Notes under the pieces: generated by a model | What the model was told of the DNA's origin: nothing | Seen by the model: only the letters and a program-made list of their open reading frames with translations | The model's database searches: none | Program-made: the position numbers and the translations under genes | Shown: positions 13,664 through 64,000 of the stretch, piece after piece | Layout: every line of letters starts with the position of its first letter | How positions within the stretch are numbered: the stretch's first letter is position 1 | Origin: Clostridia bacterium | Lineage (GTDB): Bacteria; Bacillota; Clostridia; Oscillospirales; CAG-272 | Reading direction: 5' to 3' | Assembly (NCBI GenBank): GCA_029007295.1 | Contig: JAQXHN010000003.1 | Coordinates: forward strand, 47,344 to 111,343 | Length of the DNA stretch: 64,000 nt

Positions 13664-14554
13664 ATGGACGCAAAAAAGCTCGAAATACTGATTTCCGCCG
13701 TCGACCTCGGCAGTTTTTCAAAAGCATCGGAAACGGTAGGCTATACCCAGTCGGGGCTGACCCATTTAGTAGATGCGCTCGAAAAGGAAATAGGGATTAA
13801 GCTTACAAAAAGAACTCACAAGGGCGTTTCGCTGACTGAAAACGGACAAATATTAATGCCCTTTATCAGGGATTTTATTGCGTCAAATGCAAAGCTTGAA
13901 AATGCCATAAAGAACATTAACGAAAAAAGGAACGATACAATAAGAATTGCGGCATATTCCAGCATAGCCATGCACTGGATGCCGGAAATACTGTACAGAT
14001 TCCGCCGTTTATGTCCCGATACAACGGTAGAGCTTCGCATGGTTGACCACGCTCTCGAGCCCTTTGAGCTTCTTCGAGACGGCAAAACGGACGTAATTTT
14101 TGCAAGCAGACAGGAGGGCTACAATTGTAAATGGACCCCTCTCTATAAAGAGCGGATGTTTGCGATTTTACCGAAAAATCACCCCGCCGGCTCCGACGAA
14201 GAATATCTTATAACCGATTTCCGAGAATGCGATTTTATTATGCCGTGGGGAAGATTTGACATTGAAATTAATTCCGCCTTCGCAAAAGCGGGCGTTGAAA
14301 TAAAAAAATCTCAGCCGAAGGTTGACGATGAAACGGTAATTCGTATGGTGGGCGCCGGGCTCGGAGTATCCATGATGTCGGAGCTTATGATAAGAGGCAG
14401 AACGGACGATGTCAAGTGCATTCCCGTGACGCCCTGTGTCACAAGAGAGCTCGGAATGGGCGTTTCTCATAACGATAATTCTAAAGAAATACTATTATTA
14501 AAAAACTGCGTTACCGGTTATTTAAACGAAAAATTTCTCCGTGTAAATAAATAA
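13664..14554 (+). CDS. LysR-family transcriptional regulator
   Basis: A 296-residue regulator. Residues 1-60 hold the winged helix-turn-helix (SKASETVGYTQSGLTHLVDALEKEIG, then LTENG). Residues 90-290 form the periplasmic-binding-like effector domain (IRIAAYSSIAMHWMPEIL, then VRMVGAGLGVSMMSEL-like). The start is supported by GGGAGGA six bases upstream. The inducer is unknown. It is divergent from brnQ and convergent with mgtE, so brnQ and itself are the obvious candidate targets. Among LysR subfamilies the effector region is the common type; no specific subfamily can be named. Confidence 0.88.
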   Translation: MDAKKLEILISAVDLGSFSKASETVGYTQSGLTHLVDALEKEIGIKLTKRTHKGVSLTENGQILMPFIRDFIASNAKLENAIKNINEKRNDTIRIAAYSSIAMHWMPEILYRFRRLCPDTTVELRMVDHALEPFELLRDGKTDVIFASRQEGYNCKWTPLYKERMFAILPKNHPAGSDEEYLITDFRECDFIMPWGRFDIEINSAFAKAGVEIKKSQPKVDDETVIRMVGAGLGVSMMSELMIRGRTDDVKCIPVTPCVTRELGMGVSHNDNSKEILLLKNCVTGYLNEKFLRVNK

Positions 14555-14599
14555 GAGAAAACAGAGGCTGTTTGTCAGCTTTTGTTTTCTCTTATTTTT
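14552..14599. terminator. Bidirectional terminator between the LysR gene and mgtE
   Basis: Twelve-base arms TAAGAGAAAACA / TGTTTTCTCTTA around a 19-base loop, followed by a T-run on the plus strand. The same stem can serve mgtE from the other side. Confidence 0.75.
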
Positions 14600-15967
14600 T
14601 CATATTTTCAGTATCCAAATAGCTACATTGAAATAAAGAAACACCGTGCAGGCGTCCACTATTGTGGTGATCATGGGAGAAGCCATAACGGCAGGATCCA
14701 GCTTGCACCTTTTTGCAAGCATGGGAAGACAGCAACCGAGCGTTTTTGCCAACAAACATGCGCCGACAATGGTAAGTCCTACGACAATCATTACCCTAAA
14801 AACGTCAAATCCGGCATACAGCTCGCTGTTTTTGTATATAAATTCGTACATTAGATATATTCTCAGCGCATTTGCACAGGCAAGCGTAATTCCGACGACA
14901 AGCGCTATCCTGATTTCCTTAAACAGTACTCTGCCGAAATCCTTCATCTTTATTTCGTCAACCGCCATACCTCTTATAATCAGCACGGAGCTTTGGGAGC
15001 CGCAGTTGCCTCCCGTATCCATAAGCATGGGAATAAAAGAAACAAGCAAAGCGCTCATTGCCGCCTCGTAATGCGTTATTATAATCCCCGTAAACGTTGC
15101 GGAAAGCATAAGTATCAAAAGCCATACGATACGGTGCCTTGCATGGGACAAAACCGATGTTTTAAAATAAGAATCATCGCTCGGCGTAACAGCCGCCATC
15201 AACTGGAAGTCCTCGTCTGTTTCCTCCTGCATGACATCTATGGCGTCATCTACCGTTACGATGCCGACAAGCCTTTTTTCCGCATCGACGACCGGCATGG
15301 CAAGAAAGCCGTATTTATTGATTTGCTTTGCAACCTCTTCCTTGTCCTCATGTGTCGAGACGTAGATGACGTCCTCGTCCATAATGTCCGATATTATCGC
15401 TTCCGGGGGCGCCAAAAGCAAATCCTTAGCGGTAACAATGCCGATAAGATGCTTTCCGGCGTCTGTAACATAACAGGTGTATACCGTTTCCTTATCAAGC
15501 GCCGTTTTGCGAATTCTGTCGAAGGCTTCGGAAACCCTCATCGTCTTTTTAAGGTCCACGTACTCTATTGTCATAATGCTTCCGGCACTGTCCTTGGGAT
15601 AGTTCAGAAGCTCGTTTATGCTCTTTCTCATTTCCGGCTTTGCGATTCTTAAAATTCTCTTGACAAGTGCGGCGGGCATCTCCTCAATCATGTCGACGGT
15701 ATCGTCAAGGAACATCTCCTCCAGAACCTCGCTCAGCTCATTGTCGGAGAAGGAACGGATAAGATTCTCCTGCATATCCGCGTCCATTTCGGCAAAGGTT
15801 TCGTATGCCAATTCCTTCGGCAATATTCGATAGTAACGGGGCAAATCCTCCTCATCCGCTTCTTCGAGAAGAAGCACGATATCTGCGGGCTCCATAGTTG
15901 CAAGCATTGCGCGAAGCTCGGGATATTTTTTTTGTTTCAGTAATTCAAACGCAGTTTTTTCTTCCAT
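14600..15967 (-). CDS. mgtE: Magnesium transporter MgtE
   Basis: With the start at 15967 the protein has 455 residues; the ORF track start is 22 codons too early. This ATG is chosen because AAGGAGG lies nine bases before it and the upstream part falls in the leader. Layout: N-terminal helical Mg2+-sensing domain (DIVLLLEEADEEDLPRYYRIL), two CBS domains at about 130-250 (CYVTDAGKHLIGIVTAKDL, MPVVDAEKRLVGIVTVDDA), and five TM helices with the pore motif VSFIPMLMDTGGNCGSQSS. MgtE is a Mg2+-gated Mg2+ channel of the inner membrane. The expression signal is a structured leader with terminator (16021-16213), in the place where an M-box is often found. Confidence 0.95.
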   Translation of the reverse strand: MEEKTAFELLKQKKYPELRAMLATMEPADIVLLLEEADEEDLPRYYRILPKELAYETFAEMDADMQENLIRSFSDNELSEVLEEMFLDDTVDMIEEMPAALVKRILRIAKPEMRKSINELLNYPKDSAGSIMTIEYVDLKKTMRVSEAFDRIRKTALDKETVYTCYVTDAGKHLIGIVTAKDLLLAPPEAIISDIMDEDVIYVSTHEDKEEVAKQINKYGFLAMPVVDAEKRLVGIVTVDDAIDVMQEETDEDFQLMAAVTPSDDSYFKTSVLSHARHRIVWLLILMLSATFTGIIITHYEAAMSALLVSFIPMLMDTGGNCGSQSSVLIIRGMAVDEIKMKDFGRVLFKEIRIALVVGITLACANALRIYLMYEFIYKNSELYAGFDVFRVMIVVGLTIVGACLLAKTLGCCLPMLAKRCKLDPAVMASPMITTIVDACTVFLYFNVAIWILKI

Positions 15968-16020
15968 CAAAAAAGGCCTCCTTTGTTTTGAAAATTTGCT
16001 TTTGAATATCAAAAGCACAC

Positions 16021-16050
16021 GGAAAAAGCTCAAAGCACCGCTTTGAGTTA
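16021..16050 (-). terminator. Attenuator terminator in the mgtE leader
   Basis: On the minus strand CTCAAAGC-GGT-GCTTTGAG is followed by CTTTTTCC. It lies about 60 bases before mgtE and after a small ORF, so read-through would control mgtE expression. Confidence 0.8.
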
Positions 16051-16052
16051 TC

Positions 16053-16213
16053 GTGCCAAAACATAGCAGGCAAGCTTATAAAAGTGAAGACGGACAGGGT
16101 ACCGACTTCGCATAATCTAAGCATCGCCCACCGGGTTTTAATTCGGCACTGCCTAAGTCCATTTAATCTTCACTCCTTTTCAGCATTATAATAAGGCATC
16201 GGATTACGATGCC
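16053..16213 (-). ncRNA. Structured mgtE leader, candidate Mg2+-responsive cis element
   Basis: The expected transcript begins at a hairpin GGCATCG-TAAT-CCGATGCC (16213-16195) and then passes a ribosome site and a 28-codon ORF. It is closed by long-range pairing AGTGAAGA (16174-16167) with TCTTCACT (16090-16083), plus GGAC with GTCC just inside. The terminator at 16021-16050 follows. The layout is that of a riboswitch or leader-peptide attenuator. I could not find the conserved M-box core (GGTGAGGCTCC-like and GCTGCTGCCC-like segments), so its class is open. Confidence 0.55.
16076..16162 (-). CDS. Possible 28-residue leader peptide ahead of mgtE
   Basis: ATG at 16162, TAA at 16076, with AAAAGGAG about nine bases before the start. 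The peptide begins MDLGSAELKPGGRC and ends in YAKSVPCPSSLL, with two Pro codons near the end. Its ribosome site is inside the left arm of the long-range leader stem and its last codons are inside the right arm, so translation and folding would exclude each other. Translation is not shown. It could be a chance ORF in a conserved RNA. It is too short for the ORF track. Confidence 0.4.
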   Translation of the reverse strand: MDLGSAELKPGGRCLDYAKSVPCPSSLL

Positions 16214-16219
16214 TTTTAA

Positions 16220-16248
16220 ATTATACAACTCAATCGGGAAATTGTCAA
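16220..16248 (-). promoter_or_regulatory. Promoter of mgtE leader
   Basis: Consensus TTGACA (16248-16243), a 17-base spacer and TATAAT (16225-16220) on the minus strand. The -35 box overlaps the stop codon of the flavin reductase gene. Confidence 0.85.
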
Positions 16249-16838
16249 CCCTTTTTTCCCTGAGTTCTGCGTGTACTTTTCTTCTTCTTGACGGAATACC
16301 CGAACTTGCCGAGCCTGTCGCCGAGGGCATAGTATTCTCCGTGAGAATACGCAATGGGCGAGCACCTGTTAAGACGAAGCTTTCCCTCGTTATCAACCAA
16401 GTCCTCTTCCACGCGCACGGATAAAATATCCGCCAAAAACATATCGTGAGTACCCAGAGAAATAACATCAAAAACACGGCATTCGAGGTTTACCGGGCTC
16501 TCAACCAATATCGGAGCGTCGATTTCGACGCCTTTTTCTATGTGCAGATTGCAGTCGCGAAGCTTGTCCGTGTCACGCTTTGAGCGCACGCCGCAATAGT
16601 CAACGCAGCGAACAAGCTTCCTCGTGGGCAGGTTAATCGCAAATTCTCCCGTCCGCTTTATAAGATTATACGAATATCTTTCCGGACGAACCGAAACATA
16701 GGTTTTCGGAGGGTGTGAATTGATTATTCCCGTCCAGCCGACGGTCAAAATATCGGCATCCTCCATTGTACCGCAGGTAACAAGCGCAGGCGGCAACGGA
16801 GCCAAAAGCGCACTTCCCTTCCAGATTTGCTTAGACAT
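16245..16838 (-). CDS. Flavin reductase-like FMN-binding protein
   Basis: A 197-residue protein of the flavin reductase-like split-barrel family. It shows the pattern WKGSALLAPLPPALVTCG, NILTVGWTGIINSHPPKTYVSVRPERYSYNLI-like, GEFAINLPT, and a late FLADILSVRV. Such proteins bind FMN and pass electrons from NAD(P)H or serve small redox reactions. The C-terminal tail is basic (KKKKSTRRTQGKK). Its start overlaps the end of the sugar isomerase gene by 8 bases, so the two are co-translated. Partner substrate unknown. Confidence 0.82.
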   Translation of the reverse strand: MSKQIWKGSALLAPLPPALVTCGTMEDADILTVGWTGIINSHPPKTYVSVRPERYSYNLIKRTGEFAINLPTRKLVRCVDYCGVRSKRDTDKLRDCNLHIEKGVEIDAPILVESPVNLECRVFDVISLGTHDMFLADILSVRVEEDLVDNEGKLRLNRCSPIAYSHGEYYALGDRLGKFGYSVKKKKSTRRTQGKKG

Positions 16839-17568
16839 TGTGTTCCTGAGCGTACTTTCTCAGGTATTTATAGCAACGCTTAACCTCGGATATACCGTCG
16901 GGAACGCAGCCCTCGCTCTCAACTATTATCGGCAGACCGTTTGCAAGAGCATACTCAACGACTCTGTCAACGGGAGCTATGCCTTCGCCGAGAGCCTTCG
17001 GCTTCTTGTCGCTGTCGCCGTCTTTTACGTGAATGAGCTTACAACGGTGCTTGAACCTTTTCATCTGCTCTACAGGGTCGGCGCCGCCTATTAATTCCCA
17101 ATAAGTGTCAAGCTCCAAATCAACGTCGCATTCCTCAACAAAAACGTCAAAAGGAGCAACACCTGTAATCTTATTCTTCTTGTGGTCAAAATCATGGGTG
17201 TGATAATGGAGCGTCATTCCCTGCGCCTCAACCTTAGGCTTGAGGGCGTTAATTCTGTCTATAGCGTCACGCAGGTGCTCTGCGTCGTACATATCGGCTC
17301 CGGCTATAACAATGTTTTCATTTCCTATATGCCTGTTGAATTTGATACAATCGTCAAACGTGTCCTCCAGCTGCTTTAATCCTACATGAACGCCGAGCAC
17401 GCTTAAATTGTACTTTTCAAGCATAGCTTTTACTTCTTCCGCCGTGTAGCCGTAATAGCTGCAGAATTCAACTCCGGAATAGCCGAATTCCTGCAGTCGG
17501 GAGAAGGTATAATCCATATCGTATTCAACAAAGTCGCGAACACTGTATAACTGAAGAGCGTATTTCAT
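16831..17568 (-). CDS. Sugar phosphate isomerase/epimerase (TIM barrel)
   Basis: Start placed at 17568, giving 245 residues, because CGGAGG lies seven bases upstream and the sequence MKYALQLYSVRD is the usual start of this xylose-isomerase-like barrel family. The ORF track adds 28 codons. Metal-binding residues are expected in LGVHVG, LHYHTHDFD, DLELDTYW, and the C-terminal IIVESEG. Members isomerise or epimerise sugars, often with Gfo/Idh/MocA partners. It forms an operon with the flavin reductase-like gene. Substrate unknown. Confidence 0.83.
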   Translation of the reverse strand: MKYALQLYSVRDFVEYDMDYTFSRLQEFGYSGVEFCSYYGYTAEEVKAMLEKYNLSVLGVHVGLKQLEDTFDDCIKFNRHIGNENIVIAGADMYDAEHLRDAIDRINALKPKVEAQGMTLHYHTHDFDHKKNKITGVAPFDVFVEECDVDLELDTYWELIGGADPVEQMKRFKHRCKLIHVKDGDSDKKPKALGEGIAPVDRVVEYALANGLPIIVESEGCVPDGISEVKRCYKYLRKYAQEHNV

Positions 17569-63820: not shown

Positions 63821-63887
63821 CCAAAAAAGTGTGCATTAAAAACCGAATAAAGGAAGAGCAAACGGAAACTCAACCTTCCGTTAGGAA

Positions 63888-64000
63888 GTTCAAGCCCTCG
63901 GTCTATTAGTATCGGTCAGCTGAACACATTACTGTGCTTACACCTCCGACCTATCAAACTTGTAGTCTGCAAGTGACCTTACCAACTTGAAGTTGTGGGA
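63888..64000 (-). rRNA. 23S rRNA, 3' end (partial)
   Basis: Read on the minus strand, the sequence TTTGATAGGTCGGAGGTGTA, then ACAGTAATGTGTTCAGCTGA and CCGATACTAATAGACCGAGG match the highly conserved last 100 bases of bacterial 23S rRNA. The exact 3' end is set near 63888 by comparison with the usual terminal GGGCTTGA segment. The rest of the gene continues beyond the right edge. No 5S follows before the operon terminator. Confidence 0.95.

Follow-up and report, generated by a model that had tools for sequence, protein, structure and literature searches.

Background

Leader-peptide control of Mg2+ uptake has been described in enterobacteria, and the known element of the Firmicutes is the M-box. 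In the enterobacterial leaders mgtL and corL, the transporter is switched on when the leader is translated inefficiently at low Mg2+; the ribosome is destabilised by acidic residues that follow the initial Met (PMC11552253, PMC11282234). The first of them, mgtL of mgtA (Escherichia coli, Salmonella), is a short leader ORF of a Mg2+ transporter gene, with an acidic residue after Met and two mutually exclusive folds (PMC11552253, PMC11282234). Translation of corL, the leader ORF of corA (Salmonella, E. coli), is inversely related to the Mg2+ channel gene (PMC11552253). In Firmicutes, Mg2+ transporters are controlled by the M-box (ykoK, RF00380). In attenuators of the erm/cat and trp types, which have competing pairing segments, the position of the ribosome on a leader ORF selects between two alternative sets of pairings.

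Here we analyse the leader of an mgtE gene in a stretch of 64,000 nucleotides, called the window, from a Clostridia bacterium (assembly GCA_029007295.1, contig JAQXHN010000003.1), together with a class of similar leaders from other Clostridia. The short ORF before a Mg2+ transporter gene, the acidic residue after Met and the two mutually exclusive folds, computed for the Clostridia, are common to this class and mgtL; that poor translation of the leader leads to the ON state in both is a likeness that we infer. However, the two differ in several respects. The proline-rich MgtL has the motif EPDP and the Clostridia class has MDxGSS...PGR, with no motif in common, and the window peptide MDLGSAELKPGGR... 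is not of the proline-rich short kind with an early acidic/proline EPDP stretch that defines the mgtL family. Furthermore, the output of mgtL is Rho termination, whereas in the Clostridia class it is apparently sequestration of a ribosome site, and the regulated gene is enterobacterial mgtA in one case and mainly mgtE in the other. The best reading of this comparison is that the Clostridia leader works like mgtL but is unrelated to it and not a member of its family. Regarding the other systems, corL belongs to another gene and is Rho-dependent and enterobacterial, the M-box differs from the Clostridia element, which has a conserved ORF and no M-box sequence, and the erm/cat and trp attenuators respond to a drug or an amino acid, whereas the genes of the Clostridia class point to Mg2+.

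Results and discussion

The mgtE locus of the window

An initial annotation of this locus had proposed a promoter, a 5' hairpin, a ribosome site with a 28-codon ORF and a long-range stem before mgtE, and all of them could be located on the minus strand as stated there. These features, with the regulated gene and a terminator-like hairpin, are the following:

16220 to 16248, minus strand: predicted promoter, -35 TTGACA at 16248-16243, 17-nt spacer, -10 TATAAT at 16225-16220 (12 of 12 consensus matches)
16195 to 16213, minus strand: hairpin GGCATCG/CGATGCC where the transcript presumably starts (folded with 7 perfect pairs)
16173 to 16176, minus strand: ribosome site GGAG of the leader ORF, from the sequence (all relatives that were retained have a purine-rich site before the ORF)
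16076 to 16162, minus strand: leader-peptide ORF MDLGSAELKPGGRCLDYAKSVPCPSSLL, 28 codons, ATG 16162 to TAA 16076 (codons 1-13 conserved; AGT is codon 5, CGA codon 13)
16029 to 16047, minus strand: terminator-like hairpin CTCAAAG...CTTTGAG followed by CTTTTT (1 found, 0.6 expected; role uncertain)
14600 to 15967, minus strand: regulated gene mgtE, Mg2+ transporter of 455 aa (TIGR00400, 473 bits against a cut-off of 233; PF01769)

Judged by its sequence, the promoter is a perfect one of the sigma-70 type. The fold of the whole window leader has a z of -3.5 against shuffles. The peptide had been described as ending with Pro-Cys-Pro; its actual end is ...PCPSSLL, so this triplet is not terminal.

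In the surroundings of the locus, a strong A/T-rich inverted repeat lies at 14544-14607, between the ends of mgtE and of a converging gene at 13664-14554 (LysR-like by eye). It is probably a two-way terminator, and it was the source of spurious microRNA matches in Rfam. The end of a 23S rRNA gene (RF02541) was found at the edge of the window (63886-64000), and no tRNA genes were found in its 64 kb.

A conserved leader peptide

Around 140 distinct leader peptides were gathered across the class Clostridia, 47 of them by the peptide pattern alone. Their consensus is M, then D or E, any residue, G, S, one of S, N or T, a few residues, often P, then G or R, and then R; the conserved start can be shortened to M-[D/E]-x-G-S-S/N ... 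P-[G/R]-R. The second residue is acidic in 127 of 138 peptides of the class. Conservation lies in the N-terminal half and the second half is variable; the proline is missing from many members, and the start codon and the ribosome site are kept in every one. In the nearest MgtE relatives (67-76% identical), an ORF occupies the corresponding position and begins in the same way (MDTGNGNPDAGGRS..., MDTGSSANFKPGGRS..., MDTGSSSHNKPGGRV...). The initial annotation had named absence of the stem and the ORF from close relatives as counter-evidence; the ORF start and the stem recur across relatives.

The gaps in an alignment made by MAFFT, which was given no knowledge of codons, were multiples of three. 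In addition, CGA was in frame in 43 of its 53 occurrences and out of frame in the other 10, at a variable distance from Gly-Ser, mostly of 5-9 codons. The leader ORF is conserved and, from these patterns in the sequence, looks coding. A conserved short ORF with a ribosome site before the regulated gene is what characterises leader-peptide attenuators in general. None of the five members scanned gave a Pfam or NCBIfam profile match to the peptide beyond one Pfam match at chance level (E = 0.047).

A variant peptide, V-PRS[NS][DG]S.EPRE and similar, was seen in mgtE leaders of the Acutalibacter type (L056, L057, L060, L061, L067, L069, L070, L080, L081), where Arg-Ser (CGA-AGT) takes the place of Gly-Ser.

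Distribution and gene context

A nucleotide search with the window leader alone found the source genome itself, the other matches being trivial. We also ran a sequence-only model (R1), covering the ribosome site through CGA. It matched 47 of the 196 genomes searched in the family at E <= 0.05 and, at E <= 0.002, 60 of the 295 searched in the order and 35 of the 391 searched in the class. Many of the named relatives that carry the class are gut bacteria. Among the strong matches (E <= 1e-4) 86 were read, two of which stop at a contig end, and all 84 readable ones have a Mg2+ transport gene downstream on the same strand (mgtE in 76, mgtA in 8), which is the specific association expected of Mg2+-responsive elements. 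The identity of MgtA was clear, since half-length fragments scored 500-558 bits with TIGR01524 and the equivalogs of other P-type ATPases stayed far below. MgtA is a P-type ATPase with no relation to MgtE, so the leader became associated with genes of Mg2+ uptake on at least two occasions. Versions of the element before one or the other gene were found in over 100 Clostridia.

Among the weaker matches, L283, L284, L286, L287 and L293 (E 0.001-0.02) and L233 and L234 (E about 7e-4) were set aside as chance matches, not leader ORFs before Mg2+ genes. CNNM/CorC genes are a doubtful third target: the scores were weak (E 0.002-0.03 where scored) and a similar ORF was found in few of 30 CNNM loci. 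Variant leader ORFs do occur before genes of this type (PF01595) in L280, L281, L282, L285 and L307, with the peptides MDDGDS... (L280-L282, L307) and MDEGGG...; CNNM/CorC-type proteins are linked to Mg2+ export or homeostasis. As a separate observation, the upstream regions of L010-L029, mainly mgtE loci of the Lachnospiraceae type, have no leader ORF of this class, and no M-box was found in those scanned.

M-box and known RNA families

The M-box model RF00380 gave no match at E <= 10 on positions 14500-17500. The same search, which finds the M-box in the Bacillus subtilis control, found none in the whole window genome, in agreement with the initial annotation, which had seen no M-box core. 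No curated family of Rfam 15 matched above its gathering score over the leader. The gene context and these null results support the proposal that the leader is either a Mg2+-responsive element of a new kind or a divergent form of a known class. We found no earlier description of the motif, or of mgtE leader peptides in Clostridia, in open-licence papers, although a subscription paper could exist; the judgement of novelty thus refers to Rfam, Pfam, NCBIfam and the open literature.

Elsewhere in the class, an M-box (RF00380, 89-108 bits) lies directly upstream of the leader ORF in seven loci, before mgtA in L212, L224, L228, L240, L251 and L258 and before mgtE in L216; the M-box search listed 17 members from the order to which the window belongs, none of them with an M-box. 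The tandem of M-box and leader ORF would be a natural two-gate control by Mg2+. Since the strong matches stand only before mgtE or mgtA, and sometimes behind an M-box, the class is tied to Mg2+.

Three competing pairings

Three helices were drawn for the window leader from its predicted fold and from comparison across leaders:

16152 to 16177, minus strand: 5' arm of helix A (S1: ribosome site and first leader codons), pairs with 16098-16080
16080 to 16098, minus strand: 3' arm of helix A (S3: late ORF codons), from the fold, cross-leader comparison and shuffles
16118 to 16154, minus strand: 5' arm of helix B (S2: ORF codons about 3-15), pairs with 16078-16052, -30.7 kcal/mol
16052 to 16078, minus strand: 3' arm of helix B (S4: stop codon and following bases), from the fold and cross-leader comparison
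16056 to 16071, minus strand: 5' arm of helix C (within S4, in competition with helix B), partner of the mgtE ribosome site at -17.9 kcal/mol
15976 to 15991, minus strand: 3' arm of helix C (S5, holds the mgtE ribosome site AAAGGAGG), from the fold, cross-leader comparison and footprint folding

The long-range stem of the initial annotation (AGTGAAGA with TCTTCACT, plus GGAC with GTCC) exists: pairing of the ORF start region with the late ORF gives -19.0 kcal/mol, where shuffles give -10.7, and 1 of 500 shuffles was as low. Two pairings were found beyond it, between the mid ORF and the post-stop bases and between the latter and the mgtE ribosome site, and the element is larger than had been described.

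For the comparison across the class, each leader was divided into the ribosome site and start of the ORF (S1), codons 4-17 (S2), the late ORF (S3), 45 nt after the stop (S4) and the transporter ribosome site (S5), and the pairing energy of two segments within a leader was compared with the energy obtained when the partner segment came from another leader; 95-105 leaders, chosen for dissimilar peptides, entered this comparison. Helix A (S1-S3) reached -20.6 within against -14.8 between leaders (p = 3e-15, 95 leaders), helix B (S2-S4) -22.6 against -17.1 (p = 8e-13, 100 leaders) and helix C (S4-S5) -11.7 against -9.6 (p = 4e-9, 104 leaders); these p-values assume independent leaders, which related species are not fully, and dissimilar peptides were required to limit the effect of kinship. 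The remaining seven of the ten segment combinations, S1-S2 included, were null. Compensatory changes were few within small groups of relatives, and the window helix C tested alone on short segments was not stronger than shuffles (154/500).

S1-S3 crosses S2-S4, and S4 is common to S2-S4 and S4-S5. As modelled, this layout of three pairings is that of a leader-peptide attenuator. Conservation is seen in the N-terminal half of the peptide and in the three competing helices, and not in the Pro-Cys-Pro end or the terminator.

Ribosome position and predicted fold

We computed equilibrium folds with a fixed ribosome footprint placed at each codon. With the ribosome on codons 1-4, and again near codons 20-22, helix B forms, whereas helices A and C form with the ribosome on codons 8-18. 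The mean numbers of pairs over the leaders in A, B and C were 0.0, 10.0 and 5.7 with the ribosome on codon 1, and 13.8, 0.2 and 8.7 on codon 12. In the window leader the corresponding values were 17, 0.4 and 7.8 with no ribosome, 0, 17 and 0 on codon 1, and 17.6, 0 and 7.9 on codon 12 (A 14-18 and C 7.9 over codons 8-18). The predicted switch of the window is almost all-or-none. Mutually exclusive folds chosen by the position of the ribosome, another mark of attenuators, were found in this computation. Translation and folding had been said to compete, and both the crossing helices and the modelled footprint folds support this.

Access to the transporter ribosome site falls with a mid-ORF ribosome in the real leaders (p = 2e-12 at codon 10), and this effect is lost in chimeric leaders with the 3' part of another leader. 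The predicted mean change is modest, from 0.27 to 0.20. With an early ribosome the mean access over the leaders is not above that of the state without a ribosome; in the window it is above. The models suggest that control appears to act mainly at the mgtE ribosome site. A ribosome near the end of the ORF (codons 20-22) also gives the ON fold and, therefore, more than one control logic fits.

The initial annotation had drawn an intrinsic terminator as the switch in the window genome, with helix A as the competing fold. A hairpin of 7-8 bp followed by five T does stand between the ORF and the gene, as that account needs, but as a terminator it is poorly marked: 0.6 such sites are expected by chance, the hairpin is present in both computed states, and the feature common to the class is the pairing to the ribosome site. 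We consider this explanation very improbable and, given that the hairpin is present in both states, we dropped the terminator as the switch. The terminator-like hairpin may still be acting.

Constraint at the codon level

In the full set the codon counts are partly circular, because the candidates were scored on AGT and CGA, and the unbiased counts come from the set gathered by the peptide pattern alone. In this set AGT encodes the conserved Ser in 38 of 39 cases, and CGA encodes the next Arg in 33 of 41; in the open frames of the same loci AGT makes up about 9% of Ser codons and CGA about 11% of Arg codons. Ser residues in the three codons after the conserved Ser are AGY and almost never TCN, whereas those two codons before it are mostly TCN. 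Of the two codons, AGT (codon 5) falls at the border of the computed ON zone, and CGA (codon 12-13) inside the OFF zone. The 30 tRNA loci read in the window genome (33 matches were found) include only the anticodon GCT for AGT, and ACG but no TCG for CGA, so both codons are decoded by wobble. Sensing of the peptide alone does not explain this conservation of AGT and CGA, which may reflect either codon speed or a feature of the RNA.

One reading is that GG[C/A]AGTA...CGA is an aptamer (a riboswitch for Mg2+ or another ligand), with the ORF only as its expression platform. The constraint at the nucleotide level, both in the AGT and CGA counts set against host use and in the AGY codons that follow, agrees with this. 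Nevertheless, the spacing of the blocks varies by whole codons, the start codon and ribosome site are always kept, S1 and S2 show no specific pairing and the partners of S2 are unconserved, which makes an aptamer quite unlikely. A loop E (AGUA/GAA) reading of the conserved bases was dropped on inspection, as the flanking helices fail across members.

The conserved Ser and Arg on rare, wobble-only codons would also suit the same attenuator run by another signal, be it tRNA charging (Ser-AGU, Arg-CGA or Pro), ATP or a compound that targets the ribosome, with the Mg2+ genes only as its output. Proline and ATP are sensed by Salmonella leader ORFs of Mg2+ genes (PMC3641672). However, a general sensor of tRNA, ATP or drugs is expected before other genes too, and no strong member precedes a non-Mg2+ gene; moreover, the tandems with the M-box point to Mg2+ and the proline is missing in many members. 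We regard another signal as unlikely, though less so than the aptamer.

The explanation that we prefer, with a probability of about 0.7, is translational attenuation in response to Mg2+ through a leader peptide. Helices A and C would form, and mgtE would be off, when the ORF is free of ribosomes or is occupied in its middle part. A ribosome lingering on the first codons would block helix A, so that helix B could form and break helix C, and mgtE would be translated. At low Mg2+, the acidic start M-D/E-x-G-Ser(AGT) would slow or destabilise the ribosomes, which produces the ON state, and with ample Mg2+ they would advance to the P-G-R(CGA) stretch, which produces the OFF state. In this scheme we infer that the signal is Mg2+, which way the response goes and what the AGT and CGA codons do.

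Implications

If Mg2+ is indeed what the leader senses, it would represent an independent invention of ribosome-based control by Mg2+, and it would account for the control of mgtE in genomes without an M-box. It would also be a natural case where the choice among synonymous codons is under strong conservation for the sake of regulation. A more tentative idea, possible but doubtful, is that Mg2+ is sensed by the ribosome itself, through codons in addition to the peptide, with AGU (about codon 5) and CGA (about codon 12) as fixed Mg2+-sensitive pause sites. If true, this would be a codon-level metal sensor, which many Clostridia would use on its own and others as the second gate after an M-box. 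The tandems of M-box and leader peptide make this two-gate logic open to direct testing.
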